DNA from: Megasphaera massiliensis | GTDB lineage: Bacteria; Bacillota; Negativicutes; Veillonellales; Megasphaeraceae | Direction of reading: 5' to 3' | DNA length: 60,293 nt | NCBI RefSeq assembly: GCF_000455225.1 | Contig: NZ_HF954537.1 | Location: forward strand, 1,299,588 to 1,359,880 | Shown: positions 199 through 58,119 of the stretch, piece by piece | Layout of the letters: every line of letters begins with the position of its first letter | Numbering within the stretch: the stretch's first letter is position 1 | Notes under the pieces: model-generated | Seen by the model: the letters and a program-made list of their open reading frames with translations, nothing else | Database searches by the model: none | Told to the model about the DNA's origin: nothing | Made by a program: the position numbers and the translations under genes

Positions 199-3100
199 TT
201 ACCAGTCAAGCAAATATTGGTATTGATTCTTGTCGCTTTTGTTCATACTTGACACTGTTCTTCCTTGGGTATCGAGCTTTTTCTTCTTCTGCTCTGCTTT
301 TACAGTGGAAGGCTTGATACCAGCTTCCTTTAGTTTGCGTGCATTTTCTCCTGTCGGATTCTCGATATACTCATCAACAAGCTGTTGTTTTTTGCTACTT
401 GCCTTTTTCTTTTCGGAAGACAATATTGATTGAATTAAATAAGAATCGCTTTCATCTGTAGATTGGAATCCCATTCCACGAAGTAATCGCTGATATGGTG
501 TCGTGTATTCTTGGTTTGTACGTCCGCGCTTACCAACAGATTCTCCTTGTGTAGCCATCAATAAGTTCCCTAGTCCAGGCGATATATTACGCACCTGTTT
601 TATCCAACCATCCCCACCATACGCGCTTTTAGTGACATTAAACAACGTACTAGCAGCAGGTCCAAACAAGCTATTCAGGTCATCTGGAACTGCATCACCG
701 ATACCAACTCGACTCGTAATATCAATGTTTGCGAAAGCACCAATACCGTACATACCTATCTTGGCAATAGGCTTGAGTGATGGATATTTTTCAGCAAGTT
801 CAATTAAGCTCTTCTTGGCTTCTTTTTCCGGATCATCACCGGTAATTCCCATAATTAGCAATCCCAGAATGTTTGCAAATGGAATCTGGAACAAACCAGC
901 CATGGCAAAATAGGTACCCCAGAAAATAGTCTTTTGCTTTTTAGTGGTTTCCTTGCCAAAAAATGGAAGAAAGTCTTTCATTGCTTCTAACTGTTTAATA
1001 GGATACTTCTTGAATTGCAATAATATCTGCGAAGCTATCGAACCACGCCGAAAAATTCCAGGTGCATCATGGACTCCATAATCGAAGTTTGATTTACGGT
1101 TTACGTCTTTCGCGTATCTAATAGCCTCTTCATGACTCATGCTACGTTTGCGGGCAGCTTCATAAGCCGCTAAAGTTACGCCACGGCGAACAATCCCCTC
1201 TGACTCTTTAAAAAGAATCATTCCCCGGTTAGCCCATTTCCCAGCAGAGAATTTCCCATACCCAGCTCCACTATCAAGTCCAATATCATTCAATACATTA
1301 GTTTGACGGAGTATCTTTAAGTCGTGCAAACTATATTTCCGGTGTGCTCCCTTTAACAACGCCTTCCATAAGGTTGATATGTTGCCAGTATACGCAGCCG
1401 CATTGGCAACCTGTAAAATGTTTAACATCGCAGAAGACACATTAAGGAATCCTAGTTTGGCAATGGAAATTTTATTGGTAATGGAATTTGCAAGGGATAC
1501 CGCGGCTCGATCTCCGAAGCGTGCGTTGACCCATTTACCGATAGCAGGTGTGGCGTTCAGCAAATCATTTAACTGCTTTTCAAGCGTAGATGGATTACCA
1601 TTAATATCATTAATATATTCTTTAATATAATTGGGCAATCCGTGATACTCATTATCAAACCTACCAAAAAGGCGTTCAAACAAAGAAATCGCTTGAGGTT
1701 TGAATTTACTTTCCATAGCTACATATCGCGATGTGCTGTTGAAATAATGTCGCAATACCCATTCTATTTCTTGTTCATAGCCATCCGCCCCCGTCCGTTG
1801 CATGAAGTTACCAAAGAAACGATGACGCCCTTTTTTCTTGACAATCCCGTCCAGCATTTCTTTGGCTTCATACAATGTCAAACTATGTTTGTCGGCTATT
1901 TTTTTTGCCATCCGGTAGAAATCCTTATCGCCAACCGTGGTAGCATATTGGCTTTCATCTAACCCGACTTCTCCAAAATCAAAGACTTTAGGGGCGATTG
2001 TTATTTTCCAATCTCCCTCGTTATTTTTTTTGAGCATCTCTTCGTTTTCAGCTTGCCATTTAATGGCATTTTTTGTAGCTTCACGAATAGTACGCCCACT
2101 AGAAACTACGGTAGATTTACCGTGACTATCTACACACCTTACCATATATTCATGGAAGAAATGGGGAATATAGCCTTTGCGGTTATGAATGTCCGGTACC
2201 CCTTCACGAGTAATTACTTTCCAATGCTTCTTCCCGTCCATGGGGCCTTCTTTCGTTGGAGCCTTTTCCAAGATTTGGATGTTATCGTCATTTTCTAATG
2301 ATTTCAATTCATACTCATTGACTAAATAATGAGACTGCCAATTTCCATGCTCCTTATAAGAAACGAGGGTACTGCCATCATCTTGCTTCGTTTCGCGAAG
2401 TATTTCAACGAACTTATTGTTCCTCAACTCATCCAACTTATGGCCAGCAAAATGTCCTGTTTTTGTCTTGGCTTGTTTTCTAGTTTCGTTGAGTTGGTTA
2501 TAAGCCTTGCGGAAGAGATTGCGAATTGCCAAATAACTGTCAATGACTTTTTCGTTATATCCTTGTTTATGAAGTTCCTCACGTGTATATTCCTTGCCTT
2601 CCATATCACCGGACCATAATAACTCTTGCAAGGTAGCTTTATCTTTCTTGCTTAAATCTAATGCGGAATCCAAATGTCGCTGGTAATCAGCCCGTAATTT
2701 AGTAAGAAGGTTCATGGCATCGTCCGCCATTTTAAAGAACGGTTTGAAATATTTCTTCTTTTCTGCAATTCTTGACGGAGATTGCAACAAGGTTCGATGA
2801 ACGCCGATGTCGTTTTCCGATTCTTGTTTCTGAGATATTTCAATATGGCTCATGAAGCGTTTTTTGGCCTCATTGCCTATTTTCTGTTCTTGTTGTCGAA
2901 TAGAATAATGGATTGGATCCTCTTTTTTTAACTTGCCTAAATCTGTTTCGTCTGCTATAATATTAGACAAATTAAAGGAATCGACCACCAGTGGACCATT
3001 AGGCGTCCGGGCTGAGGTATTTATACCAGTAAGCCAGTGGTCGGTTCTTTTTTTGTTTATGTAAATACAATCGCCACGCATTAACCTATCGATATACCAT

Positions 3101-6100
3101 GTATTGTTTGGGTGATTATTGCCTTTTCCGATTGTTTTTCCATAAACACTTTTTATAATGTTACCCACAATTTTATTTCCGTCTCTCGTCTTCTGTTCCA
3201 TAACAAACGGGATCATAATAGTTGCCCCATCATTATCTTTTAAATCAACGACTACAATTTTTGAAGATATATCTTCAACACCTTTGTTGTCAACAGCTTT
3301 TAAAATAAACATAGGGTCTGCAATCCTGCGAGGTATTTCTTTTAGTACTTCTGGAGAAATTTCGAGCCCGTGTTTCCAATGCAATACTTTATCTAATACG
3401 CGTGGGGAAATATACACTGGCAACATTTTTTCACCAATCAAATTTAAAACTAGAGGAGTATCCATCACCCGCACATACTCATCATACGACAACTTGTGAT
3501 TCATAAAGTCGTCTATTTTTTTTGCAAAGGACTGCATATCCTCTTTTAATTTTCTTTTTGCGTACATCGAGTAACTTCTGGGCTGACTACCATCGCTGTT
3601 TTCTGGTCGTTCCCACACTCTGCCCAACTCAATTTTCTGGAACACGTCGTGTACGTTCTCTGTACGAGTGAATATTATCTTCATCTTTGCGGCAAAATCC
3701 TTAATCTTCTGGAAGAGTTTGCCCCACGCCGTGCCGCGGCCATGTTTACGAGCTTCCACCCATTCGGCATATTTGTTGGCACGGTCTTCGGCGTTCGGGA
3801 TAGATTTAGTAATGGCCGCCTTTTCTTCATTCGTCAATACAGCTTGTTCGGCAACGTGATAAGCTTCATGAAACACTGTACCTTGCCGGCTACCCTGTGC
3901 CAAAGCTATATACGCATCTTTTCCGTGTGTCTTTGCAAAACCTTCTACCACTACATTGTCATTTCCGTCAATGGAGTGGTCTTTTTTTGCTCTGGACAAC
4001 TCATCCTCTGTCAAAACTATTTGATTCTTAACGTCTACAACGATGTGTGAGCCGTTTGGCATGGTAAATGTAATGCGGTCGCCGTATTCTTTGATATCTT
4101 TCGCCGTAGGAAATGCTTCTTTAATGCCAGCCTTTAATTCTTCTTTGGACTGAATAATGGCCTCGCCAGCCTTACGGGCGGAATATTGAGTATCTTCCGA
4201 CATACTTCCGATACGATCCGGCATGGTTCTGTTTTCGAGTGAGTCGAACAAGTCATTGATATTGTTGGCCATTAATTCAATCGGCCCTCGTGCTTCTGTA
4301 TTGGCAATTTCACGAGTACTTTCGTCGGTGTATTTATCGATAACGTAGATCTTTGTCCCGACGCTTGTTCCAGCTCTTTCAAATGTTACGCTTGGCAGTT
4401 TTATTTCGGCCATGATAACAGCATCTGGAACGCCTCTATCTTCCTTACGTTTTGCTTCCTGGTCGCCATACATCCATTTGTCAAAATGTTTCTGGCAAGA
4501 AGGACCATCCGGAACTATTGCAATGATTCGACCGCCGTCTTTCAAATGTCGGTAGGCTTTTGCAAGATGTTCAATGGCCGTCTTCCCGCCTTTGCCGAAC
4601 GGCGGATTCATAACGATCCCGTCGAATTTGTTGTGCAGGTCAAGGTTTTCAAAGTAGTTTTCAACAACTTTAGCATTGGAAACATTACGCATGAGTTTGG
4701 GACTCAAGTCATGCGACGGTTCGACAACGGTATTATAGGTGTCGTTCGGCATCCACCTAGCGATAGCGCCGTCACCGGCAGACGGTTCAAGCAAACTGTC
4801 ACCTGGTTTGCTGTCGAGCCATTCAACCATTTTAAGCCCTAGCGGTTCCGGAGTCGCAAAGAAATCTATCCCTTCACGGGCTTTTGTCCGCGCGTTTCGT
4901 TTCTGCTTGCCAAAGTATACGCCTTTAGCACGGTCAAAGTCTGTCGTTTCATGCTGATTCTTATAGTCGATAGCTTTGCCACCAGTGCCTTCGGTTGCAC
5001 TTCCAGGAAGGTATTTGTGCCATTCGTCGCCTTCTTGAGATTCTTCAAAGGCTTGTACATATGACGCTTTTAATTCACGAGCCATATCACCCAACGCAAG
5101 ATTTTCGACGGTTGCCGCGCGTTCTGCTAGTTTAGTAGCAAATGCAGCCTGTTCCATATATGTACCTGTGTTTAGATACCGGAACATAGCATTTGATTTA
5201 TTCCCTACACGGTAAATACGCCCTTCCTGTTGGATAGCTTCACTAGGTTTTGTAGGAAGTCCTAAATTAATCAATACACGTTGGTGCTTCCCGGTTGTAT
5301 CATGCAAGGATACGCCCGCTTGACCTGCATCAGACTGTATAAGAATTACTTTAGTTTTGCTTTTATCATCATTGAAAGATTTTTTATTGGCTTCACGTTG
5401 TTTCTTGCTAAGCGTACCATTATACAACACAAGACTATCGCCAAATGCGGTTGTAAGAGCATTGATTGGAGATTCAAGGCCGTTTAAGTCGAGCCTCATT
5501 AAATCTGGCCGTTCTTGGCTAAACTTATCGTATTGTTCAAGGACCTTCCCCGCCAACTCATGGTCTGCTGCACGTTCTAGCTGGCTTCTTAATTCGGAAC
5601 TCATGACAAAGGGATTGTTGGCACCGCCCTTATTGTAGTTGTGAAAAACAACTACTCTCTTTCCAGACTTCAAATATTCTTTGATGAGTGGCACCGCCTG
5701 TTTAGCTTTGATTGCTTCAAGAAGATACAACTTCTTAAACCCTTTAAACTGGTTGTTCAGGAATTCATATAAGTCTCTATATTCAGGCTTGTTTCTAAAC
5801 CATTCAAAGGCCTCATCAATCGTTTTTCCAACTCCGGCATCAATGCGAATAAAGCCACGATCGTAGTCATATTCAGATGATAACATACGTCCGTGTATAG
5901 CCCCTGATTCAACGAGTTTGTGATTGAACTGCCGTTCCAAAAGGTCGGTATCTACTTCGGAGCCAGGGCGTTCCAAGCGATTGTAACGCATTTGATAGCC
6001 AAAATTTTCCATGTAGAACGTCTCTTTGCCATTAGCATTGTTATAGCCCTGTTCTTCCATAGGTCCATAATCGCTATAGTTGAAGAGATATCCGTTCGCA

Positions 6101-9100
6101 TAGTCGAGATTAGCAACATGTTCAAAGGGCGTAGCTGACAGGAACACGACTTTAGATTGATTACGCTTAGCAAATTCAGCTTTATCTTCGGTTTCAAAGG
6201 CCTTTAGTTTTCCTCTAAGGCCTTGTACTTGTTCCTGCAATTCACGAGCTTCATCCTCAAGACTGCTTATCTTTTTATCGATTTCAGCATCCGGTAACTT
6301 CCCTTTACGGAGAACGTCACTTCGTTCTTTATCTAGTTTATCGATATTATCATGGATTGACTTTATTTTGGCAGTTAACTTCGTAATCGGCTCATCTAGT
6401 TCGGGGTGTTTATCGTGATGATACCGCTGGAATCCATCTTCATGCCCCGTAATTGCACGTACTAAGTTAAGCGCTTGTGTCGGTGTAGCCTTGGATCCAC
6501 CCATTAATTTTTGACTTTCGTCTGTGATTACTAAATCAAATTCACGATTTACAAGTACATGGTTATCTCCAATATTTGCATATGTAGCCGTAACAGGGCC
6601 TTTGCCTGCATCTTGTTTATTTTCGAGTCGCGTTAACTTAATACCAAAAGATCTTTCTGCATCCCCCTCCCATTGATTTAACACGCCGTCACTAGGAGCA
6701 ATGATAAGGATATTTGTTTTGCCTGCATCCATAAATCGTTTGACAATACCTAGCCCCGTATAAGTTTTGCCTGTTCCGGTGCCATTAGTAAACATCATAC
6801 CATTATGGTTTTTAAAACGATCTTCTGCAAGCATCACGTCTTCAGCCTGTTCTGGAAAAAGCATAGGCAATGCTTTTTTTATGCTATCAAGAGTGCTGTC
6901 ACGTTGCTCTTTTTGTACCTTTTCTATCGGGTTTTCATGCTTGGGTCTGTTTTCAACAGCTCTAACAGATTCGTCATTTCCTTTTGATTCATCGTCGGGC
7001 AATCCCTCAAAGCTATCTCTAACGCTTCTTGATAGCTCAACACTTCTGGAGCGTCGATCCGAGGATTTTTCAGTTTGTACTGTGCGATTGCTAGTCTCTC
7101 CGCTAACAGCGGTGCCACGATTTGAAACGCCGACATCGCCATTTTTTCGTTCTTCGGGTTCTTTTCCTGTCGATGTAAAATCTCGTCCGCCGCTGCGCAC
7201 GGGTCCTCCGCTTTGAACACTACCTTGCCCCAATACGTTTTCACTGGCCCCTTCGCCAGATCGTGAAGCCAACTTATCGGTGCTGCTATTAACATTGTTC
7301 GTCGCTCCTTTCAATTCTTCAACACTAGGATAGTTTATAACTGCATTATACACCGCGTCAAAGTATCTTGCATTACGTGCGCCTAATGTCCCGATAAATT
7401 CACGACGCAAAAGGACTTTGTCAGTCATTCCATGGTCATACATTGATCCGACATACTTAACCGCCGCCGTAAACCGCTTTTCGTCAAGGCTGGCATTTTT
7501 AGGCATCGATTGTAACGAAGTCCAAACCGAACGCAAAAACGGTTCGCCTTGTGGCATGGTTTCCTTCATAGCCCTTGCCCAACTAGCAAATGTATTCAGT
7601 CCGCGTTGTACATGAATGGCTCCTAGCTTAACCATGTGGTACATGAGCGTTGGATTAAACATAGGATTAGAGCTAATTTTAGAAAGTTCAGCAAGAATGG
7701 CTTTCTTTTCAGCTTCCAATGCCGCGTCGCTATCATCTAACAAATGGAACGTCTTGTTTATTGTTTCATTGTCCTTCGGAGTCGTGGCCTTTTTAGGTGT
7801 TTCCTGTGTTTCTCTAGGGTTTGGTTTTTTATTCTGTTTGACTGTTTCTTTTGTCGTTTTATTTGCAGGACTAGGACTATCAAAGAATCCCTTTTTAGAA
7901 GGTGTGTTTTTTGGCTTGTCGTGTTTTTTAATACCAAATGCGGCCATAACGGCTTCTTCGGCATCAGCCACACTTCCAAATCGAGCATCTTCTCTAGCAA
8001 GCTCGCTTGTATTATTTTTAGCGGCGTCTTTTACTTTCTCTTGTGCATCGTCCTTAGCACTTACAACCGCTTCCTTCTGAGCTTTCTTTTCTTTGCGTTT
8101 CTTGGACGCTTCTACACTCATTTGATTAGCGACAGCCATTGCGTCATTAACCATGCTGTTTACCTGAGTCCGTTCGTCATTGCTTAACTGCTTGTCAGTC
8201 TTGACGAGTTCCATGTCATCGAACGTGCCGTATGTAGCATGGCCAGCATCCATCAAGACACGTTTCAGTTTATCCTGTGTCTGCTTCGGAGTCAGCTCTT
8301 TATTCTGTAACTTGTTGGAAATATCGTCAATGACCTTTCTGAACGGATCAGTATGAGATGACTGTACTTTTGGCGTTTCCTGTTCAGACTTTTTACTTTG
8401 CTCTTTTTTTGCCTTTAATTCACGGATGTGTTCTCTTAAAGCCCCTGATGTAATTTCATCGTTAGCCTCTATAAGATCAATATGTATCTGATGATGTTCA
8501 TCGTCATTCCTGTCTACCTTATTTGCTGTTTCGGCATCATGGAATTCTTTTTTTAGTTCATCTAGTTGTTTTTCAGCTTCCTTATATGTGATTTTTCCTG
8601 ACTTTGCGTCGTCACGAGTTGTATTTACACGGTCATTTAAATCCTTGTAATAGGCTAATTTTTCCCGTTCTTCGCTTGTAATGGTATCGGCTGAATGATT
8701 TATTTCTTCTTGTACGTCACCTTCGGTACTTTTTTCGGAAACGGTACTTTGCGCGTCTTTACTTTCAGCTTGCTGACGTTCGGCGTTCCGGCTGTTATCT
8801 TCGTTGCCTTTTTCATTTGTATCGACTTCCTTTCTTGAAGTAACCATCTTGGCATTTTCTGGTTTAATGTGTTTGAATTTATCTTTTAGAGATTGTCCGT
8901 TGGCTTGCTCGTAAAGATTTGCAACCGCCTGTTCGGCTCCATCATAAAGCAGATTCATAGCAGGGTTATCCTTAAAGTTCATGTTCCACTCGTTAAGTGC
9001 TGATTCCCCGCCAGCGCTTTTTATTGCACCATCTATGCGTTTTGCAAACTCGTTCCGAACTTGATTATGGATAATAGCTCTCGCTTCTGCTTCTGTTTTA

Positions 9101-12100
9101 GCATTCTCAAAGGCCCTATGGAGCTGATTTACGTCAAATTTCATCGTCCACGGTCCATCCTTGCCAACGGCCGTACTCCATGTAGTAATTTCCCCGTTTT
9201 TTAGACCGCCTCTCCACTGATTGCCGTCTTCTTTATAAACTGCTTTGAAAGATTCTGGCTTTTCTTTTTTGGTCGGAATATCGTTTTGTTCATTCTGTCT
9301 TTGTGTGGAGACGTCACTATCCGTAGGACTCTGTACAAGTTCCTGCTTGTTGTTGGGAGAAGGCGTAGCAGTCGTTTTTATGGTCGTTTTGGCGGCTTCT
9401 CTTGCCTGTGCCTGGGACTGCTGCAACTGGTCAGCCAATGAAGCCTGCTGTTCTTCTGTTCCGTTTCTGAACGTATCCATATATTGTTTGAATTGCGGAT
9501 GATTGCGGTCAAACGTAGACAGAATACGGCCCAACTGGGCGTGTGGTGCTTCCGTCTGATTCTTTGGTGTAACTTTGTCGGCGGCTTTTGTTGTAGGCGT
9601 TGCATTATCGGCAATTGCCTGTTTAACGGCATCACCAATTTCTTTCTTATAATTGACCTTAATGTAGTTTCTGTTTTCTGGAGTGTCTACGAATTTCGGC
9701 TGTCCATTAGCATCGTTCGTAAACATGCCGTCCAACGTATTCACTTCATCAATGTCTTGAGAGCTATCCAGAACATTTTTAGCTACATCCGGAACAACGT
9801 CATCGGCGGTTACTTTATTTTCTCCGTTAAGTTTGGCCTGATCTTCCTGTGCTGCTTTCCGTGCTGCCTGCGCTTCCTGATCAATTTCAGCGTTTGTACG
9901 CTCCATAGAATCGTCATTCATAATGTCGTTCATAGCAGCATTGCTATCAGCCTGAATTTGATTCATTTCGCTATCAAACTGACTTTGCATTCTTTCAATA
10001 TCGTTGTCTGATGAGTTATTAGAAACGGTCGCATTGCCAGAAATAGGGCCTCCATTATTAGAAAAATGTACATGGCCGCCAGTTGCATTAGCGCTAGGGT
10101 GTTCGTATTCATCAAGCGGAGTCAGTCCCAATTCCTGCCCGCGTTGCATGAGCCATTCACGAGCATCTTTATTCTGTTCAAGAAAATCGGATGCAGTGTC
10201 AAAGGCATTGCCGGTATTATGGTACGAGGCGTTCGGGTCCCCGTCTCTTTTCATCGATGTAATAGAAAGTCGCTGTCCGAATTGTTTATAGAAGTCATGC
10301 ACAAGAATTTGTAATTTGTTGATTGTATCCTGGGTTTCACCTTCTACGTTTGGAGCATCAGCTTCACTGATATCATAGTAGGGATTTCCATTTTCATCGA
10401 GAACGTTACCGTCATAGCCGCCACTAGAATTTCCAACGTCACCCATATTGTCATAGTTATTTTTAACCATGTCCCGATACTGTTCAGCTTCTGGGCCAGA
10501 ACCATTGTAAGCACGAACGCCTGCCCATACGTCACCGTTTTCACCGGCAATTTTAGCTTTAAGGATAGCCATACCGACCATGGCGTTTTGATACGGGTCT
10601 GTTTTCCAATCCGGATATTGTTTGTCGAGTCCTAAATCTTCAACGGTTTCGTCCTGTGCCTGCATAATGCCATATACTCCATCATGAGGTTCGGGCATCC
10701 CGATTGCATTAACATCATCGCCTCCACTTTCGCGGGCTGCAATGGCCAGGCCCAACCGCGGGTCTACGTCAGAATCATTAGCCGCTTGAATGACTGCATT
10801 AACCATCGAATTACCGGTATTAGCATTCATGCTGCTGCGTGTAACAGGCTGTTTTTGTGCAGCCGTTTCTTTTTGAGCTTTAATGACACTGTTATAAGCG
10901 TTGTTGACTTCTTCTGGAGTGCCATTTCGGATAACACCAACAAGCCAGTCATAGTTTTCCTGGCCAATCTGGTCTACCGTATTATTGTTCAAGAAATTAT
11001 AAATTTCTTCTTTCTGAGTGAATGCATCAAAATCAGCCATAGACTGATCTATAGAGTCCTGCGCATTATCATTTTGACTTTCTGCATTATCAGATGCAAG
11101 TCTAGCAATAGCTGAAACGTTAGGGTCTTTACTGTTAGAAATATATTCGGCAGCTGCTTGCTTCGTATTAAATACAGGGTTGCCACTTTCATCGGTCGTA
11201 ATATTAGGTCTAGAAGACATAGACGCAGCAATATGTCCCGGTGTACTCATGCCAATACCACCAATAGCCCCCGCTAAAAAACTGTCTCGCTGATCATCCG
11301 TCCATGCATATGGATTGAACGGGTTCCCCCAAGGCTTGTCTTCTGCATTGTTTTGAATAACCTGCTGTATATTTTCCTGCATCCCTTCGTTGGCTGCACC
11401 CAACGCTACGCCAGGAATCGATCTAGGGATAGCCATTCCAAGACGTTTAGCAGCGCTTTCGGTTACACTTGGTCGGAAAACTTTCGCGCCAGCACCTTTC
11501 ATCAAGGCATATTCAACCGGGCTTGTAACAAGTCCTAATGCCATATTTTCAGCCATTACAGGAGCGCCTTTAAGCATTGCTTGACCATAACTAAGGCCCT
11601 CATCCTGCAAATCTTTTACGGTATTCCCATATTCACCAGCCGATTCAAGAAGGTTCTTACCAATGGCACCTTTAACCATATCCGGTGCAATTTCTTTAAA
11701 CGCCGCCGATCCAGCTACTTTCCCCAGTCCGACGCGACTAAGAGCCTTTCCCATAACACCAGCACCGCGGCCAACAATACTTGCGGGGACTGCTTCGGCC
11801 GCTGGCACCATTGCAACGGTCGAGCCAAACCCCTGACCTAACCAAAACGCAGCTTGGTTAGGATTTGTCAAAATATTATCGCCATATTGTGAGTCCCATT
11901 CGTCACGTACTGGTTTCCAATAATTTTCATAGGCGTCGACTGCGTTTTGTACGCTGTCAATCCCAACGAGCGAAAGTGGAGAGCCCATGGCGTTCGCCGC
12001 GCCTTCTGCAAAGCCCATCCCAAAGGCGGTACCGTGTGGATATTCTTGAGCATTCTTTTTAAATCGTTGTTGTGTGGTTTCTCCCCACACATCCCACGGT

Positions 12101-12333
12101 TTAACATACCCGCCATTATACGTCGGGTATTGTGCAAGTGCCTCTGCACGACCTGGAGCTATAAAGTTAGCAGCAGCATTGGCCCACGAAGTAAGGTTAG
12201 GAAGAAACGAGTCTCCCGACTGTTGGCCAGACGAATCCGCGGCTGCGGACTGTTCTTTGTAGTAATCCAGATTTTTATCGCTTTCTAAGTCACCGCCATT
12301 CACCATGCGGACGAACTTATCATAATATGGCAT
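199..12333 (-). CDS. giant polyvalent ejected virion protein (transglycosylase, M15-like peptidase, helicase, DNA methyltransferase, zincin, MuF_C-like nuclease)
   Basis: At 4,044 residues this takes a fifth of the phage. Domains I can see, in order: a lytic transglycosylase at about 505-630 (catalytic-type ARESGG, then GVYGIMQ); a D,D-peptidase M15-like domain at about 665-760 (HNTGNAFD and GHVHFS); a long Lys/Glu/Asn-rich linker at about 800-1700; an SF2 helicase at about 1830-2400 (Walker A NGTGTGKT near 1850, DESQ near 1935, QQEGRIYRVG near 2366); an N6-adenine-type methyltransferase at about 2490-2620 (EPSAGDG, NPPFG near 2575); a zincin-like HEAYH near 2822; a region like the MuF C-terminal nuclease fold at about 2970-3120; and a helical, partly hydrophobic C-terminus resembling large polyvalent-protein domains (LPD38-like). 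Polyvalent proteins of the P1 DarB kind are packaged and ejected with the DNA. The position, last in the late operon after other ejection-type proteins, fits. The likely roles are crossing the wall and protecting the entering DNA; this is inference. It starts with ATG 11 nt after a GGAG. Confidence 0.85.
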   Translation of the reverse strand: MPYYDKFVRMVNGGDLESDKNLDYYKEQSAAADSSGQQSGDSFLPNLTSWANAAANFIAPGRAEALAQYPTYNGGYVKPWDVWGETTQQRFKKNAQEYPHGTAFGMGFAEGAANAMGSPLSLVGIDSVQNAVDAYENYWKPVRDEWDSQYGDNILTNPNQAAFWLGQGFGSTVAMVPAAEAVPASIVGRGAGVMGKALSRVGLGKVAGSAAFKEIAPDMVKGAIGKNLLESAGEYGNTVKDLQDEGLSYGQAMLKGAPVMAENMALGLVTSPVEYALMKGAGAKVFRPSVTESAAKRLGMAIPRSIPGVALGAANEGMQENIQQVIQNNAEDKPWGNPFNPYAWTDDQRDSFLAGAIGGIGMSTPGHIAASMSSRPNITTDESGNPVFNTKQAAAEYISNSKDPNVSAIARLASDNAESQNDNAQDSIDQSMADFDAFTQKEEIYNFLNNNTVDQIGQENYDWLVGVIRNGTPEEVNNAYNSVIKAQKETAAQKQPVTRSSMNANTGNSMVNAVIQAANDSDVDPRLGLAIAARESGGDDVNAIGMPEPHDGVYGIMQAQDETVEDLGLDKQYPDWKTDPYQNAMVGMAILKAKIAGENGDVWAGVRAYNGSGPEAEQYRDMVKNNYDNMGDVGNSSGGYDGNVLDENGNPYYDISEADAPNVEGETQDTINKLQILVHDFYKQFGQRLSITSMKRDGDPNASYHNTGNAFDTASDFLEQNKDAREWLMQRGQELGLTPLDEYEHPSANATGGHVHFSNNGGPISGNATVSNNSSDNDIERMQSQFDSEMNQIQADSNAAMNDIMNDDSMERTNAEIDQEAQAARKAAQEDQAKLNGENKVTADDVVPDVAKNVLDSSQDIDEVNTLDGMFTNDANGQPKFVDTPENRNYIKVNYKKEIGDAVKQAIADNATPTTKAADKVTPKNQTEAPHAQLGRILSTFDRNHPQFKQYMDTFRNGTEEQQASLADQLQQSQAQAREAAKTTIKTTATPSPNNKQELVQSPTDSDVSTQRQNEQNDIPTKKEKPESFKAVYKEDGNQWRGGLKNGEITTWSTAVGKDGPWTMKFDVNQLHRAFENAKTEAEARAIIHNQVRNEFAKRIDGAIKSAGGESALNEWNMNFKDNPAMNLLYDGAEQAVANLYEQANGQSLKDKFKHIKPENAKMVTSRKEVDTNEKGNEDNSRNAERQQAESKDAQSTVSEKSTEGDVQEEINHSADTITSEEREKLAYYKDLNDRVNTTRDDAKSGKITYKEAEKQLDELKKEFHDAETANKVDRNDDEHHQIHIDLIEANDEITSGALREHIRELKAKKEQSKKSEQETPKVQSSHTDPFRKVIDDISNKLQNKELTPKQTQDKLKRVLMDAGHATYGTFDDMELVKTDKQLSNDERTQVNSMVNDAMAVANQMSVEASKKRKEKKAQKEAVVSAKDDAQEKVKDAAKNNTSELAREDARFGSVADAEEAVMAAFGIKKHDKPKNTPSKKGFFDSPSPANKTTKETVKQNKKPNPRETQETPKKATTPKDNETINKTFHLLDDSDAALEAEKKAILAELSKISSNPMFNPTLMYHMVKLGAIHVQRGLNTFASWARAMKETMPQGEPFLRSVWTSLQSMPKNASLDEKRFTAAVKYVGSMYDHGMTDKVLLRREFIGTLGARNARYFDAVYNAVINYPSVEELKGATNNVNSSTDKLASRSGEGASENVLGQGSVQSGGPVRSGGRDFTSTGKEPEERKNGDVGVSNRGTAVSGETSNRTVQTEKSSDRRSRSVELSRSVRDSFEGLPDDESKGNDESVRAVENRPKHENPIEKVQKEQRDSTLDSIKKALPMLFPEQAEDVMLAEDRFKNHNGMMFTNGTGTGKTYTGLGIVKRFMDAGKTNILIIAPSDGVLNQWEGDAERSFGIKLTRLENKQDAGKGPVTATYANIGDNHVLVNREFDLVITDESQKLMGGSKATPTQALNLVRAITGHEDGFQRYHHDKHPELDEPITKLTAKIKSIHDNIDKLDKERSDVLRKGKLPDAEIDKKISSLEDEARELQEQVQGLRGKLKAFETEDKAEFAKRNQSKVVFLSATPFEHVANLDYANGYLFNYSDYGPMEEQGYNNANGKETFYMENFGYQMRYNRLERPGSEVDTDLLERQFNHKLVESGAIHGRMLSSEYDYDRGFIRIDAGVGKTIDEAFEWFRNKPEYRDLYEFLNNQFKGFKKLYLLEAIKAKQAVPLIKEYLKSGKRVVVFHNYNKGGANNPFVMSSELRSQLERAADHELAGKVLEQYDKFSQERPDLMRLDLNGLESPINALTTAFGDSLVLYNGTLSKKQREANKKSFNDDKSKTKVILIQSDAGQAGVSLHDTTGKHQRVLINLGLPTKPSEAIQQEGRIYRVGNKSNAMFRYLNTGTYMEQAAFATKLAERAATVENLALGDMARELKASYVQAFEESQEGDEWHKYLPGSATEGTGGKAIDYKNQHETTDFDRAKGVYFGKQKRNARTKAREGIDFFATPEPLGLKMVEWLDSKPGDSLLEPSAGDGAIARWMPNDTYNTVVEPSHDLSPKLMRNVSNAKVVENYFENLDLHNKFDGIVMNPPFGKGGKTAIEHLAKAYRHLKDGGRIIAIVPDGPSCQKHFDKWMYGDQEAKRKEDRGVPDAVIMAEIKLPSVTFERAGTSVGTKIYVIDKYTDESTREIANTEARGPIELMANNINDLFDSLENRTMPDRIGSMSEDTQYSARKAGEAIIQSKEELKAGIKEAFPTAKDIKEYGDRITFTMPNGSHIVVDVKNQIVLTEDELSRAKKDHSIDGNDNVVVEGFAKTHGKDAYIALAQGSRQGTVFHEAYHVAEQAVLTNEEKAAITKSIPNAEDRANKYAEWVEARKHGRGTAWGKLFQKIKDFAAKMKIIFTRTENVHDVFQKIELGRVWERPENSDGSQPRSYSMYAKRKLKEDMQSFAKKIDDFMNHKLSYDEYVRVMDTPLVLNLIGEKMLPVYISPRVLDKVLHWKHGLEISPEVLKEIPRRIADPMFILKAVDNKGVEDISSKIVVVDLKDNDGATIMIPFVMEQKTRDGNKIVGNIIKSVYGKTIGKGNNHPNNTWYIDRLMRGDCIYINKKRTDHWLTGINTSARTPNGPLVVDSFNLSNIIADETDLGKLKKEDPIHYSIRQQEQKIGNEAKKRFMSHIEISQKQESENDIGVHRTLLQSPSRIAEKKKYFKPFFKMADDAMNLLTKLRADYQRHLDSALDLSKKDKATLQELLWSGDMEGKEYTREELHKQGYNEKVIDSYLAIRNLFRKAYNQLNETRKQAKTKTGHFAGHKLDELRNNKFVEILRETKQDDGSTLVSYKEHGNWQSHYLVNEYELKSLENDDNIQILEKAPTKEGPMDGKKHWKVITREGVPDIHNRKGYIPHFFHEYMVRCVDSHGKSTVVSSGRTIREATKNAIKWQAENEEMLKKNNEGDWKITIAPKVFDFGEVGLDESQYATTVGDKDFYRMAKKIADKHSLTLYEAKEMLDGIVKKKGRHRFFGNFMQRTGADGYEQEIEWVLRHYFNSTSRYVAMESKFKPQAISLFERLFGRFDNEYHGLPNYIKEYINDINGNPSTLEKQLNDLLNATPAIGKWVNARFGDRAAVSLANSITNKISIAKLGFLNVSSAMLNILQVANAAAYTGNISTLWKALLKGAHRKYSLHDLKILRQTNVLNDIGLDSGAGYGKFSAGKWANRGMILFKESEGIVRRGVTLAAYEAARKRSMSHEEAIRYAKDVNRKSNFDYGVHDAPGIFRRGSIASQILLQFKKYPIKQLEAMKDFLPFFGKETTKKQKTIFWGTYFAMAGLFQIPFANILGLLIMGITGDDPEKEAKKSLIELAEKYPSLKPIAKIGMYGIGAFANIDITSRVGIGDAVPDDLNSLFGPAASTLFNVTKSAYGGDGWIKQVRNISPGLGNLLMATQGESVGKRGRTNQEYTTPYQRLLRGMGFQSTDESDSYLIQSILSSEKKKASSKKQQLVDEYIENPTGENARKLKEAGIKPSTVKAEQKKKKLDTQGRTVSSMNKSDKNQYQYLLDW

Positions 12334-19380: not shown

Positions 19381-20391
19381 ATGAAATTACCTAATGGATA
19401 CGGAACTTGCTATAAACTATCTGGGAATCGGAGGAGGCCGTTTGTCGTGAAAAAGACGATAGACGGAAGACAAAAGATACTGGGCTACTTCGATACGTTT
19501 GCTCATGGCATCGCCTACCTTTCTTCTGTCAATGAATCGCCATTAATCGACGATAGTATTACCTTCGCTGAACTGTTTCTACGTTGGAAACAGTTGAAAT
19601 ATAGTCGGTTATCCGTATCCAGTTGCAAGAGCTATGACAATGCCTTTAGACACTGCCACAAGCTGCATAAACTGCCTTTTCGTAGTATCCGATATGGTCA
19701 TTTGCAAGACGTTATCGACGACATACAGGCAGGATACTGCACACAAAAGAAGTGTCGCGGACTATTAGAACAACTATACCGTCACGCAATCAAGTACGAT
19801 ATCGTTAGCACCGACTACGCAAGATATATTGAGCTAAAACCACACATTAAGAAATACAAGAAAAAGCCATTCACGGTCAGACAAAGAAATAAGCTTTGGC
19901 GTGCCGTAGATGATAATCCGGATGTCATTGATGTACTCATCCTTATTTATACAGGCCTTCGAATTGGAGAATATTTGCGACTCACGCCACACGATGTGAA
20001 GTGGCGCAGCCACTACTTTATCGTCCAACAATCTAAAACAGCATCAGGCACCGGACGCGCTGTACCCATTCATAAAAACATTTATAAATGGTTTGTATCT
20101 CGTAAAGAACAAGACTACATCTGTCAGCACGAAAACGGGACTCCATATACCTATGATTCATTTAGACGACGGTTTGACTCCGTTATGAAGTCTTTCGGGA
20201 TGCACCACACACCACACGAGTGTCGACATACTCTAGCCTCAATGCTTGATAGCGTCGGAGCTAACGACACGGCCATAAAGAAAATACTGGGTCATGCCTG
20301 CCGCGGTGTAACAAAACACGACTACACACATAAAACAATTCGTGAGTTGCGGAAGGCTATTGACGCGGTTTACCGTTGGGGAGTTGGCTAG
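19381..20391 (+). CDS. tyrosine recombinase, probable tail-fibre invertase
   Basis: 336 residues. All catalytic residues are visible: Arg in TGLRIGE, Lys in QSKTASG, His and Arg in HECRHT, His in ILGHA, and Tyr in KHDYTH. The N-terminal 50 residues are basic and resemble an arm-binding domain; a core-binding domain follows. It is the only plus-strand gene within the late region. It lies beside two fibre genes with silent cassettes and is far from the phage ends, while a separate integrase sits at the right end. I infer DNA inversion (an Rci-like role) rather than integration. The last codons (RWGVG, stop) are encoded inside crossover repeat B. A start-proximal AAAGGA supports the ATG at 19381. 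Its promoter must lie within the divergent small membrane gene. Confidence 0.85.
   Translation: MKLPNGYGTCYKLSGNRRRPFVVKKTIDGRQKILGYFDTFAHGIAYLSSVNESPLIDDSITFAELFLRWKQLKYSRLSVSSCKSYDNAFRHCHKLHKLPFRSIRYGHLQDVIDDIQAGYCTQKKCRGLLEQLYRHAIKYDIVSTDYARYIELKPHIKKYKKKPFTVRQRNKLWRAVDDNPDVIDVLILIYTGLRIGEYLRLTPHDVKWRSHYFIVQQSKTASGTGRAVPIHKNIYKWFVSRKEQDYICQHENGTPYTYDSFRRRFDSVMKSFGMHHTPHECRHTLASMLDSVGANDTAIKKILGHACRGVTKHDYTHKTIRELRKAIDAVYRWGVG
20373..20385 (+). repeat. crossover repeat B of fibre 2 shufflon
   Basis: CCGTTGGGGAGTT, identical to repeats C and A. It occupies the last codons of the recombinase gene in one frame and begins silent cassette 1 in another (reading VGEL). Confidence 0.75.
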
Positions 20392-31863: not shown

Positions 31864-32136
31864 CTATTCTCCTTTCCGTCGTGCGCCTTTAGCTTGCACG
31901 ATAATGCCATTCATATATTGGTAAAATCTAATCGCCGCTTGATATGAGGCTTGTATATCTTGCGGTGTCTTACTGGCTGCTAATTCTTCTAGTGCCTTTT
32001 GTTTCTCGACTTCCATCCAGTCATTTAGAAATTCTTGTAGGTCTTCTGCTCTTCTGCCGTCCGTAAGCACTCGTGCGAGGTATCTGTCTCTATTACCCGT
32101 TACGCGTGCTTGCGTCAGCTCGTCATGTCTGGCCAT
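31864..32136 (-). CDS. small conserved head-region protein
   Basis: 90 residues, charged and helical. It overlaps the portal gene by 14 nt and precedes the scaffold by 5 nt. No domain is recognised; it may be a head assembly or portal-associated protein. Confidence 0.6.
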   Translation of the reverse strand: MARHDELTQARVTGNRDRYLARVLTDGRRAEDLQEFLNDWMEVEKQKALEELAASKTPQDIQASYQAAIRFYQYMNGIIVQAKGARRKGE

Positions 32137-34363
32137 TGTTCATCCCTTGCTGTAACTGCTGCAATTGCTCCGGTATCGGCCCTTGTGGCTGATTAGGAAC
32201 CTGTAATGAGTCGTCATGAGCGACCTTATTAATCAAGTCGTCAATCGTTGCATTACCGGCTGTCCGACTGTTAATAATCCCGACTTGCGTATTAAGCGGC
32301 AAATCGTTCATGTTGGCTCGTACCGACGGGATACTTGCGACGGCAACCTTGCCTTCGTAGTCCGCCTGTTTGATGATGAGTTGTTTTTGCAGGTCTGCCT
32401 GTTCTTTGGCCGCTTCCTGCGCCTGCTGCTGTTGTGCCGCCTGTTGCTGTATCTGCTGTGCTTCCGGGCTGTCAGGATCAAGCAAGATACCTTGCGTGTT
32501 CTTGAGTCCCATTTCCTCCAGTAATGCGGTGCCGGCTGCATAATAGCTTTTTGGCGTTGCAACTCCGGCCTGGCTAAGCGTCGGATATACATTAGATAAC
32601 AACATCATGTAAGACTGGATACGCGCCTCTTTGGTTCCTGCTCCATTGCCGACGTTGATTACAAGGTCGTAGTCGATATCAAGGTCATTGCTTGATATCG
32701 AGACTTCTGAATCCTTAAATCGGAACGTCTGTACATCCTCGCCGTACTTACGATTAAGCAATATCAAGAACCGGATCATGGGAACAATCCAGTTTTCGGC
32801 AAATAATCGTGCGATAAGTCGTATACGCTTATCTGCCTGGCCTAATATTGCAGTAATCCCGGTCGCGGTGCTGTTAAGGCTGTTGGAGTCAAGGCCTTGA
32901 TTGTACTTGGTGCTGCCTGTACGGTTTTGCAACTCGCTTTCTGCGTAGTTGACTAGATCCATAGACAGCGGAGACAGATTAGCCGGAGGCGGATTGGCAA
33001 TCGCTGCGCTTGGGTCGCCGTTAATAGGCACGTATTCATCGCCATTCATGAGCGCATCAATATCAGTAACCTTGGAATAATCGATAAATTTCTGCTGGTC
33101 GTTATTTTTGGCGACATTGATGATGATTTGACGGATAAGAGCGGTCTTGAGGTCTTGCAGCCCCTCTACTTGCTCTGCTAATGCATGGTCTGCGAATATT
33201 TTGCGACTTTCCCGAACGCTTCCCAGGGCAAAAAACGGAGCCAGGTCAAACTCATTGACTTGGATAGACAGCGGTACATTACCGACACAATGCACGATAA
33301 GATGCTCGTATACGCCGTCGTTGTTGTAGTCGACGTCTACATAGCACTCGTACAACTCAACGTCCTTGGACGCCTTGTCATGATCAGTTGGCTTCATACC
33401 ACCTTGATTACGTGCCGGATTGACGTACTCATCGGCATTGGTGTACCTTGTATCGCCTGCGTCATCCAGTGCCTTATCGACGTTTTGATAGGTCCCGTCT
33501 AACTCTTTGCGCTTGAGGTAGTCTCCCTTCACAATTTTCCGATGAGCGACAAATTTGCAGCTTTGAAGGTTACTGCCCTCCGGCGTGAATCTAAGCTCCG
33601 TCGGCGGTACATACTCAACTACCGGATGATTAGACGTCACCTTAACATGGTCGAATTGCACCTCGTACAGATCAGGCGCGTCTTTCAAGGGCTTTATGCT
33701 CTTGATTTCAATTTCACCGGATAATGACGCCTGCGTAAGCATCATAGCCTGTTGCATATCGTTTACGTCGTACATCAGCTTGTATCGTGTACGGTTCTCT
33801 TCCCGCTTCCACCATATCTTGGTAACTCCTAAATTGGTCGATAACGCTTCATCCACTACGTCAGATACCATGGAGGTGTAGTTATTCTTACGCATGAGCT
33901 GGTACTCAATGAGCTGCTGTATCTTGGTCGCTGTGTCGTCGTTCTGTATCGTGCTACCCGCGATAGTTACCGGAGACTCGTTTCCCGTAAATACCTCTAC
34001 AAGCGACGGTTTCATCCACTCGATGACGTTGGCCAAGTCCATGCTCACGAATTTACTCTTACGTGACAGGTTAGGCAGTTTTTCCTTGTAGAGTTTCTGT
34101 TCCCCGTATCGGAGACGCTGCCGGTGTATCAATTTAGGCTCTACAGTACCCTCATAATACTTATTGGCTACGTCTATGCCGTCACATACACTTGCCATAA
34201 TCTTCTCGATTTCCGCATCCTTGAGTGTGTCCAATGATACGGGACGTTCTTCTGGCTCCGCTTGCTGTAAGAGCCAGTCAGTTACACTAATCTGCGGTGC
34301 ATCCCGCCCAAATAAGGATGACTGCTCCTGTGCATTAGACAGGCCGCTGTTAATATCGTCCAT
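32123..34363 (-). CDS. portal protein
   Basis: 746 residues from the ATG at 34363, preceded by GAGGTGATGTA; an upstream in-frame start exists but has no ribosome site. FVSMDLANVIEWMKPSLVEVFTGN at about 90-113 and YVPPTELRFTPEGSNL near 260, followed by long C-terminal helices and a Gln/Ala-rich barrel-like tail (about 640-680), match the large P22-like portal family. The portal is the dodecameric channel at the head vertex through which DNA enters and leaves. Confidence 0.85.
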   Translation of the reverse strand: MDDINSGLSNAQEQSSLFGRDAPQISVTDWLLQQAEPEERPVSLDTLKDAEIEKIMASVCDGIDVANKYYEGTVEPKLIHRQRLRYGEQKLYKEKLPNLSRKSKFVSMDLANVIEWMKPSLVEVFTGNESPVTIAGSTIQNDDTATKIQQLIEYQLMRKNNYTSMVSDVVDEALSTNLGVTKIWWKREENRTRYKLMYDVNDMQQAMMLTQASLSGEIEIKSIKPLKDAPDLYEVQFDHVKVTSNHPVVEYVPPTELRFTPEGSNLQSCKFVAHRKIVKGDYLKRKELDGTYQNVDKALDDAGDTRYTNADEYVNPARNQGGMKPTDHDKASKDVELYECYVDVDYNNDGVYEHLIVHCVGNVPLSIQVNEFDLAPFFALGSVRESRKIFADHALAEQVEGLQDLKTALIRQIIINVAKNNDQQKFIDYSKVTDIDALMNGDEYVPINGDPSAAIANPPPANLSPLSMDLVNYAESELQNRTGSTKYNQGLDSNSLNSTATGITAILGQADKRIRLIARLFAENWIVPMIRFLILLNRKYGEDVQTFRFKDSEVSISSNDLDIDYDLVINVGNGAGTKEARIQSYMMLLSNVYPTLSQAGVATPKSYYAAGTALLEEMGLKNTQGILLDPDSPEAQQIQQQAAQQQQAQEAAKEQADLQKQLIIKQADYEGKVAVASIPSVRANMNDLPLNTQVGIINSRTAGNATIDDLINKVAHDDSLQVPNQPQGPIPEQLQQLQQGMNNGQT

Positions 34364-34396
34364 TACATCACCTCGTAACTGTGCAAATAACAATAA

Positions 34397-34471
34397 TGGT
34401 GCCAGAACGCGGACTCGAACCGCGATAGTGCCGCTTATGAGGCGGAGTCTCTACCATTGAGATATTCCGGC
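34397..34471 (-). tRNA. tRNA with anticodon CAT (Met or Ile2)
   Basis: Read on the minus strand: acceptor GCCGGAA pairs with TTCTGGC, then A and an encoded CCA. D stem TCTC/GAGA, anticodon stem CCGC/GCGG with loop CTCATAA (anticodon CAT), T arm CGCGG-TTCGAGT-CCGCG. It lies between TerL and portal, inside the late transcript. Whether it is elongator Met or lysidine-modified Ile cannot be decided here; the initiator features are absent. Confidence 0.9.
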
Positions 34472-34478
34472 ATGACAA

Positions 34479-34601
34479 GTGGACGCCTGGGGACCGTCTG
34501 GGAAACGGTCGCTAACCCCCAAAACGTCCACCGCCAGAAAGGAGGTGTAACTATGAATACGCGGGGTCGCAAAGGGGCGCCGTTGCTGCGTTGCCCCGCG
34601 T
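34479..34601. ncRNA. candidate structured RNA next to the tRNA
   Basis: Nested stems: GTGGACG (34479-34485) with CGTCCAC (34525-34531), TGGGG (34488-34492) with CCCCA (34517-34521), and GACCGT (34492-34497) with ACGGTC (34505-34510). A second hairpin has arms ACGCGGGG (34559-34566) and CCCCGCGT (34594-34601). Between them, the minus strand reads CACCTCCTTTCT (34536-34547), equal to the 3' end of Firmicutes 16S rRNA. It could be a processed leader of the late transcript or a plus-strand element; strand and function are open. Confidence 0.5.
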
Positions 34602-34605: not shown

Positions 34606-36132
34606 TTACATGAATCCTGCACGATGCATCTTGCCTCGTGTCATCTTGCGCCACTTGTCCACTCCATTGTCCTTGTCGCGGTATAACTTAGCACACATAT
34701 AGGCCAGACAGTCCATAAGGTGCGAATACTCATTTTTCTCCGGCTCATCCAGTGTCCTGCCTGCGACTACCTTACGATGATAACCGCCCGTAAATGCCTC
34801 GATAAGCATCTGACACCGTGGGTCTAATAACAATAATGGCTTGCCATCAGGCGTCAACGTCGTCAAAAAGTAACGTATTGCCTCGCTGCGTCCGGTCTGT
34901 GACAATTCGCCCGGATCTACCCGGATACCGTAGTTGTCATACAGTAGCTGGTTGGCAGTACTCTCATCGCTCTGTGCGCGTTGATTGCCTGCCGGGTCGC
35001 CTATGTCGGTACAGTCATAGCCGTTGTAGTACGTAGCCATTTCAGCCGATACAGCACGACCATGAGCCAACATGCCACAATCCCATGATTGCAGCTCTGT
35101 AAGTATGAGTAACTGCCCTTTGGCCGTCGTCTGACCGATTACAGTTGCCGGAGTTAATCCGTAGTCCCATCCGCGTATAAGCGGACGTCCTGGGACTGGT
35201 TTCAATTCCTCATTGGCAACGTGGAAATTATAATTAAATTCCGGATAATATTTAGGCTCTGCACTGACAGTCCAGTTGATTTCGTATTCTCGTTCCCAAC
35301 CTTCTGTAGTCGTACCTTTCTTTTCGTTGGTGCGCCATTCTTCCGACCGCTTCGACGGGTCCGCGCTGTAATGTATCCTTGCTACGTACACGCCGTTACG
35401 ACGGTACTCATGTACGCCTTGCATTACGTCGTGTGGCTCCTGCTCTTCTTCCGGCTCATCCTCGTTGAGTTGGCCGGTAACTAGCTGGCAGAAAAACCCA
35501 GGATTGGCCGATGAGTCGATGAAGATACGCCCACCGCCCTCAATCGTCGGTCGTAAACTATTCCATGTTGCTTGTGCGAAGTCCCAGAAGGCCATTTCGG
35601 TGCAATATACGACGGATGCAGTGTACTGACGTAATTGGTCAGCACCTTCAGCGACCGCGCGGAACTCGACACCATTAGACAGCTTAATGTAGTCATAGCC
35701 CATCTTAGATCGTGTCTTACGCTCTACCTTCGGCCATGGGTACCCGGCAGGCAGATGCTCATACAGGAATAATAAGCGGCTATCTCCCAATAGGTACGCG
35801 CTGTCATCGTATTTCTTGGACTGGACGAATATAGAAAGATTTTTGCCAAACATTGCGAAGTGCAGCAGATTAGCCAAACATCTCCAGGTCATCATCATTC
35901 GACGTGATTTCGGGAACGCGGCGACCTGCTCACCGTGTATTATCTTGTCTACTCGTGCGAGATAGTCCAGCTTGGGGAAGTGTTCGACAGCACCGCGTTT
36001 TGCTTCGTTGACCGTGAAGCAGCAATTATCGATAAATTCCGTCGGATTTTGCGACCATACCTGCAACTGCATCAACATAGCCAGCTCTTGACGTTCTTTT
36101 TCATTTTTATTTGCTGTTTTTGCCGCTTTCAT
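34606..36132 (-). CDS. terL: terminase large subunit
   Basis: 508 residues. The Walker A-like FPKSRRMMMTW at about 73-83 and the Walker B-like SVVYCTEMAFWDFA at about 172-185 form the packaging ATPase. The C-terminal nuclease-like half contains LIRGWDYG near 315, YDCTDIGDPAGNQRAQ, and later acidic residues typical of the RNase H-like fold. It drives DNA into the procapsid through the portal. It lies downstream of the probable small subunit. Confidence 0.88.
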   Translation of the reverse strand: MKAAKTANKNEKERQELAMLMQLQVWSQNPTEFIDNCCFTVNEAKRGAVEHFPKLDYLARVDKIIHGEQVAAFPKSRRMMMTWRCLANLLHFAMFGKNLSIFVQSKKYDDSAYLLGDSRLLFLYEHLPAGYPWPKVERKTRSKMGYDYIKLSNGVEFRAVAEGADQLRQYTASVVYCTEMAFWDFAQATWNSLRPTIEGGGRIFIDSSANPGFFCQLVTGQLNEDEPEEEQEPHDVMQGVHEYRRNGVYVARIHYSADPSKRSEEWRTNEKKGTTTEGWEREYEINWTVSAEPKYYPEFNYNFHVANEELKPVPGRPLIRGWDYGLTPATVIGQTTAKGQLLILTELQSWDCGMLAHGRAVSAEMATYYNGYDCTDIGDPAGNQRAQSDESTANQLLYDNYGIRVDPGELSQTGRSEAIRYFLTTLTPDGKPLLLLDPRCQMLIEAFTGGYHRKVVAGRTLDEPEKNEYSHLMDCLAYMCAKLYRDKDNGVDKWRKMTRGKMHRAGFM

Positions 36133-57042: not shown

Positions 57043-58119
57043 ATGAATATAGACTACAACTTCACTTACCGCCAAAAAGACAAGGGCTGGCAAGTCATAT
57101 TGTCTTATAAAGACGGTAGCAAATGGAGACAAAAAAGCAAACAGGGACTAAAGACAAAGCAGCAGGCAAAAGCCATGGGCGAGGAACTTTTGTCCGACCT
57201 TAAAAGAACATTTGTTCCTTCTTCAAACGCTATGAAGGGAACAACACTTAGACAATTTTTGCCCGTATTTCTAAAGGCAAAAGCTGGCGATGTTTCTTCG
57301 TCAACGCTTATTGAGTATCGTGATGTGTGTAAGTTTTTTCCGGAAATTGCAGATATTCCAATGGACGAAATTACCACTCAAAACGTCGCACGCATTTTAA
57401 CAAGAAGAAAAACAGAAGGTTATTCAGTCGCAACACAACGACTTAGACTTACTATATTAAAGGCTGTATTATCTAGTGCAGCCAATACTTATGGCATTAT
57501 CCGTGAAAATCCGGTAAAACGGATTAAACTTGATAAGCGGCAACGAAAAAAACTCCGCACCCTTTCGAGCGAGGAGTTTAGGACATTACTACAAAGCCCA
57601 ACTGCAATTGGGTATGAATACTACAAAACGATCGTAATGACAGCTTATTATACCGGTATGCGCTATGGCGAGATTTTAGGCTTATCATGGGATAATATAG
57701 ACTTTGACAAAAAAGAAATAACTATTGAAAAACAGTTAAAAAGGTATCCTCACGATCATAAAATTACCTATAAACTAGGTCCACTGAAAACACCTGGATC
57801 GTATCGGACTATTCCAATACCGGATGTATTAATTGAAAGCTTAATTAAACGGAAAAAGCAAAGCACCGATAACTTAGTTTTCTCCGTCGTAAGCTCCAAT
57901 ACAATGGCTATAAACCGATGGATCAATAAATCTATTCCAGGACGATCTATACATGCATTCAGACACACTTACGCAACAAATCTACTTGCGCACGGTGTTG
58001 ATGTACAAACGGTAGCGGCACTATGTGGCGATACCGTAAAAACAATCATCAACAACTATATCGACTATACAAATGAAATGCGAAAGAAGGCTGCGCACGA
58101 TATTAATAGGATTTTTTGA
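57043..58119 (+). CDS. int: phage integrase (tyrosine recombinase)
   Basis: 358 residues. An N-terminal AP2-like arm-binding domain, a core-binding domain (about 65-165), and a catalytic domain with Arg in YTGMRYGE, Lys in LKTPGSYRT, His/Arg in HAFRHT and Tyr in NNYIDYT. The position usually LGH reads CGD, a change also seen in some other integrases. A strong AGGAGGT precedes the ATG. The gene lies at the right end of the phage, so it is the true integrase. Confidence 0.92.
   Translation: MNIDYNFTYRQKDKGWQVILSYKDGSKWRQKSKQGLKTKQQAKAMGEELLSDLKRTFVPSSNAMKGTTLRQFLPVFLKAKAGDVSSSTLIEYRDVCKFFPEIADIPMDEITTQNVARILTRRKTEGYSVATQRLRLTILKAVLSSAANTYGIIRENPVKRIKLDKRQRKKLRTLSSEEFRTLLQSPTAIGYEYYKTIVMTAYYTGMRYGEILGLSWDNIDFDKKEITIEKQLKRYPHDHKITYKLGPLKTPGSYRTIPIPDVLIESLIKRKKQSTDNLVFSVVSSNTMAINRWINKSIPGRSIHAFRHTYATNLLAHGVDVQTVAALCGDTVKTIINNYIDYTNEMRKKAAHDINRIF

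Follow-up and report, generated by a model that had tools for sequence, protein, structure and literature searches.

Between its genes for the terminase large subunit (TerL) and the portal protein, a phage late operon in the genome of Megasphaera massiliensis carries a short sequence identical to the end of 16S rRNA. Does this identity reflect chance, a signal read from the opposite strand, or a part of a functional RNA? The features of the window – the whole stretch of 60,293 nucleotides that was analysed – are listed in Table 1. The preliminary description had placed a 12-nt match between TerL and portal, shortly before a tRNA and in the sense orientation of the late operon (minus strand); each of these points was borne out. 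The host assembly is without a 16S sequence, so the 16S end was taken from relatives of the same genus and the same order, in which it reads GGCTGGATCACCTCCTTTCT; CACCTCCTTTCT is its last 12 nt. In proteobacterial hosts the 16S tail is, for example, CACCTCCTTA. Dinucleotide-shuffled windows contain a mean of 0.015 exact copies of CACCTCCTTTCT, counting both strands.

Table 1. Coordinates of the 16S-tail copy and its surroundings in the window.
Feature	Position	Strand	Remarks
Anti-Shine-Dalgarno (anti-SD) / 16S-tail copy CACCTCCTTTCT	34536..34547	-	exact 12-mer; ACACCTCCTTTCT counted from 34548
Hairpin 1	34559..34601	-	predicted fold; begins 5 nt past the TerL stop codon
Hairpin 2	about 34474..34535	-	predicted fold; between anti-SD and tRNA
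tRNA, anticodon CAT (tRNA-CAU)	34397..34471	-	ARAGORN and Rfam agree; 64 nt downstream of anti-SD
Portal Shine-Dalgarno (SD) GAGGTG	34369..34374	-	6-bp complement of anti-SD; duplex -10.2 kcal/mol
TerL	34606..36132	-	phrog_2, E=1.5e-21; upstream of the element
Portal protein	32123..34363	-	phrog_1216, E=1.1e-90; downstream of the element

The tRNA has a canonical fold (57.3 bits, Rfam) and is not initiator-like, because its position 1-72 is paired. The portal start is the ATG at 34363; the listed open reading frame begins at a TTG at 34393. Two stable hairpins had been described as flanking the anti-SD: both fold, but only hairpin 2 stands out against shuffled sequences (z = -3.5), the stretch with hairpin 1 reaching z = -0.6. 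The preliminary description had also considered an RNA with an exposed anti-SD; in the predicted ensemble the anti-SD is not fully open (unpaired probability 0.46, compared to 0.58 in controls) and can pair with the portal SD. Across elements, uniform exposure was rejected, as predicted unpairing is not consistently above that of shuffled controls; uniform sequestration was likewise rejected by the predicted folds. An Rfam scan of the window at the gathering score returned the tRNA only, which places the element outside every Rfam family.

The closest relatives provide a means of asking which parts of this arrangement are retained. By TerL identity these IMG/VR phages are L010 (86%), L012 (82-83%) and L011, L016 and L017 (about 80-81%). 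The TerL–portal gaps of the window and L011 cannot be aligned outside the tRNA, yet the match grows to 13 nt, ACACCTCCTTTCT, which is found exactly in L011, L016 and L017. This 13-mer is the longest word common to the gaps of the window and L011; shuffled sequences share words of at most 9. The distance from motif to tRNA is 64 nt in the window and L011 alike, and the place of the window tRNA-CAT is taken in L011, L016 and L017 by a tRNA-Ile(TAT). Hairpin 2 is weak in L011 (z = -0.1), and hairpins of other sequence stand at the place of hairpin 1 in L010 and L011. In L010 the motif is reduced to ACATGCTCCTTTCT, with only CTCCTTTCT kept, and the tRNA to a remnant (7581-7672, plus strand) with T arm and acceptor intact and a shortened anticodon arm; L012 has no anti-SD, and of its tRNA an acceptor-stem remnant. 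Neither yields a tRNA call (for L010, in ARAGORN and Rfam alike). Given that L010 is decayed in both parts and L012 has lost both, motif and tRNA appear to decay together, albeit in a small sample. L010 also gives a weak match to SpF41_sRNA, at 25 bits against a cut-off of 52, for which we claim no membership. TerL relatives at 56-64% identity have neither motif nor tRNA.

Conservation of this kind could arise from the opposite strand, where the sequence reads as a Shine-Dalgarno, AGAAAGGAGGTG, 5 nt before an ATG at 34553 that opens a 16-codon reading frame. Sequence and spacing do fit a start site, but in the window alone: L011 is without a start codon at usable spacing, L010 has only a GTG in another context, and the motif is kept without a start codon in L011, L164, L075, L251 and L177. 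Broader evidence comes from a scan of IMG/VR in which CACCTCCTTTCT had to lie ahead of a tRNA-like pattern; it gave 24 matches as against 2 for the control, a single reversed motif, and neither of the 2 has a tRNA at the match. Real tRNAs are present at 12 of the 24, representing 9 lineages. An opposite-strand reading frame of at least 40 aa at SD spacing accompanies 7 of the 12 tRNA-less matches and none of the 12 that are tRNA-linked, which led us to reject a plus-strand ribosome-binding site; as an explanation of the element it is scarcely credible. The exception, L353, has a 71-aa opposite-strand GTG frame 16 nt away, beyond SD reach.

The order found in the window – hairpin, anti-SD, hairpin, tRNA – recurs in unrelated phages. 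Other scans added L153/L217, L236, L043/L063, L091 and L040/L061/L076, together with near-exact examples in L412, L425, L383 and L441. The 12-mer is single-copy in 16 of 18 phage records, in which the reversed motif has no copy. L045 and L075 share ATCACCTCCTTTCT intact while both flanking hairpins are altered in sequence; the adjacent phrog_850 protein is 72% identical between them. The motif is a loop sequence in L236 and L153, where the hairpin is long, and in L040, where the loop is that of GGCATC-GATGTC. L244 has no tRNA in the vicinity, and there the motif is flanked by two hairpins, one of them terminator-like. The motif of L040, L061 and L076 lies within a conserved noncoding stretch and, as the whole stretch is conserved, carries little weight alone. 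Structure immediately before the tRNA was also compared: the preceding 45 nt fold with z < -3 in 36% of the cases that carry CACCTCCTT as against 8% of other phage tRNAs in the same loci, and in 34% of cases with CTCCTTTCT only, a set that may hold both members and chance matches. The base after TTTCT varies among elements, which indicates that the copied unit ends at the mature 16S end.

Several observations attach to these loci. The gene after the element in L075 (9016-10413, minus strand) and L045 (153-1499, minus strand) is the phrog_850 'RNA-binding protein'; it has DUF2828/DUF7788, is possibly Ro60-like, and is 42% identical in Prevotella Lak phages. The noncoding stretch, at about 2600-2860 (plus strand) in L040 and also in L061 and L076, comprises some 230 nt conserved upstream of a tRNA-Met and matches no Rfam family; additional copies of CCTCCTTTCT lie farther upstream in L040 and L061. 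GTCTCCTTTCTTTT shortly before a tRNA-Met is common to L071, L144, L157, L168, L171, L182 and others, and may represent the 16S-tail element in shortened form.

Chance, or the relic of an rRNA-operon spacer acquired along with its tRNA, would require no function at all. The rRNA operon (16S end, tRNA, 23S) offers the same order of 16S tail, spacer and tRNA, and host-type operons share it. A search of 398 genomes of the phylum for more copies returned rRNA operons and, apart from these, a single match at which no tRNA was called. The phage element, however, comprises only 12-14 nt of 16S, is sharply bounded, lies inside phage operons and precedes tRNAs of types other than the Ile-GAT or Ala of spacers; moreover, it is retained exactly against diverged flanks in two lineages. 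For chance alone we arrive at roughly 1-3 motif–tRNA pairs in IMG/VR, a rough estimate of our own that assumes 1-2 million phage tRNAs, and single examples such as L353, L177 and L260 may therefore be chance. One lineage speaks for this explanation: in the crAss-like relatives of L260 (cr126_1 and PhiCrAssBcn4) hairpin and tRNAs are kept and the motif is not. Free change of the motif beside retained hairpins is the pattern that the preliminary description had named as evidence against its own reading; it is seen in this one crAss-like group and in part in L010, but in neither L011 nor L045/L075. On balance we regard chance or relic as improbable. That related and unrelated phages have the motif in like surroundings makes it probably a working RNA part, and we are fairly confident, though short of certain, that the 16S-tail element is real and conserved at the RNA level. 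Among crAss-like phages, L482 (830-925), L480 (500-550) and L481 (310-360) share a hairpin that contains TCTGGTCTGTGAAGATAG or a close variant of it, in the interval from tRNA-Arg to tRNA-Glu.

If the element works as RNA, then its target may lie close at hand. The anti-SD could pair with the portal SD, holding the portal gene off until RNase P and RNase Z excise the tRNA. In the window, L011 and L016 the two are complementary over 6-9 bp (-10 to -11 kcal/mol), and this holds for portal SDs of different sequence (GAGGTG, AGAGAGGA). The minimum-energy fold of L016 includes the pairing; in the L010 fold the corresponding segment is paired to the region of the portal start. Such pairing is nevertheless expected anyway, as any SD complements an anti-SD, and a copy of 12-14 nt reaching to the 16S terminus exceeds what a lock needs. 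A lock is possible in the window clade and not general, because elsewhere the next gene is distant, behind more tRNAs or a ROOL RNA; as the explanation of the element we consider it unlikely.

A second possibility is that the element is aimed at a protein: a hairpin resembling h45, together with the tail, would mimic the 16S 3' end and capture a factor that binds the tail or takes part in its maturation, be it bS21 or another. There is a precedent in OLE RNA, whose P6 helix contains a perfect 6-nt anti-SD mimic (CCUCCU) that binds bS21 and is required for that binding (PMC12054373). The preliminary description knew of no named RNA of this kind; its claim has to be qualified, since OLE is likewise noncoding, occurs mostly in Bacillota and has a perfect anti-SD copy. 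OLE differs in being about 600 nt long, not a phage RNA and not tRNA-linked, and neither the window nor the loci scanned gave a match to it in Rfam, whose models include that of OLE. At the level of sequence, both partners of an OLE-type interaction are present, the anti-SD in the element and a bS21 gene in the host, and in several elements a hairpin stands just 5' of the tail. Against this, bS21 is absent from all phage records tested, the 5' hairpins are without sequence likeness to h45, and most elements lack the GGAU that precedes CACC in 16S. We think a protein decoy unlikely, a little more so than the lock. A unit ending at the 16S terminus fits either selection for the widest SD pairing or mimicry of a protein ligand.

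Pairing with mRNA has its own precedents. In the C-rich anti-SD sRNAs of Staphylococcus aureus (RNAIII, RsaE), and in the UCCCC of the icaR 3'UTR, a single-stranded pyrimidine seed beside a hairpin pairs with SDs; their UCCC motifs are of 4-6 nt and are not released by tRNA processing. The phage element differs in that 12-14 nt of the 16S tail are copied; it is complementary to the portal SD, and its predicted accessibility is not above control. The reading that we tentatively favor, and that could well be wrong, is of a tRNA-anchored phage RNA that copies the host 16S tail, pairs through this anti-SD with SDs and tunes late translation. In the late transcript TerL would be followed by a hairpin, the anti-SD, a second hairpin, the tRNA and portal. 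Cleavage by host RNase P at the tRNA 5' end would leave an upstream RNA whose 3' end is protected by hairpin 2, the anti-SD lying directly ahead of that hairpin, and the same cut would free the portal mRNA. The anti-SD may then pair in trans with the SDs of other mRNAs, in cis with those of the flanking late genes, or with both; by competing with 30S subunits it would, in the late phase of infection, tune the translation of mRNAs that have strong SDs. A general SD competitor is argued against by the fact that the phage's own mRNAs would be hit too. Taken as a whole, the earlier reading of this locus is partly supported.

The recurrence in unrelated phages raises a wider and more doubtful prospect: that an undescribed class of RNA has arisen in, or spread across, many of them, in which the full 16S tail sits on a hairpin-protected, tRNA-processed transcript, is sometimes joined to ROOL, and diverts SD recognition or 30S factors. 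A search of the open-access literature found no description of such an element. Its nearest counterparts in setting are ROOL and GOLLD (RF03087 and RF02032; PMC12286853), which are likewise phage-encoded and beside tRNA islands; these, however, are intricate RNAs of hundreds of nucleotides, the paper makes no mention of an anti-Shine-Dalgarno or Shine-Dalgarno sequence, and the window, where Rfam matched the tRNA only, has no match to either. ROOL does adjoin the element in L222, L412, L091 and L043, as a neighbor distinct from it: in L043 about 12 nt separate the end of ROOL (257-873, minus strand) from the motif, which is followed after about 6 nt by the tRNA. ROOL is present in 4 of 27 scanned loci and in none of 15 tRNA-array controls, numbers too few for a claim of association. 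If the class is real, then phages keep, next to their tRNA genes, the tail with which ribosomes select mRNAs, copied in portable form. How phages steer the initiation of translation could then be approached directly, and tRNA-island RNAs without assigned function would for the first time have a testable connection to the ribosome.

Other features came to light in the course of the analysis. In the window, a 4044-aa protein (199-12333, minus strand) combines SLT transglycosylase, MuF_C, Strawberry-notch-type helicase and weak methyltransferase domains and is a giant polyvalent virion protein. There are two tyrosine-integrase genes (19381-20391 and 57043-58119, both plus strand), one of them within the late region on the opposite strand. 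Among the viral contigs, L386 has a match to a permuted tmRNA (4361-4638), and the tRNA array of L094 contains a tRNA-Pyl and a skipping-rope RNA (3025-3101 and 11497-11566).
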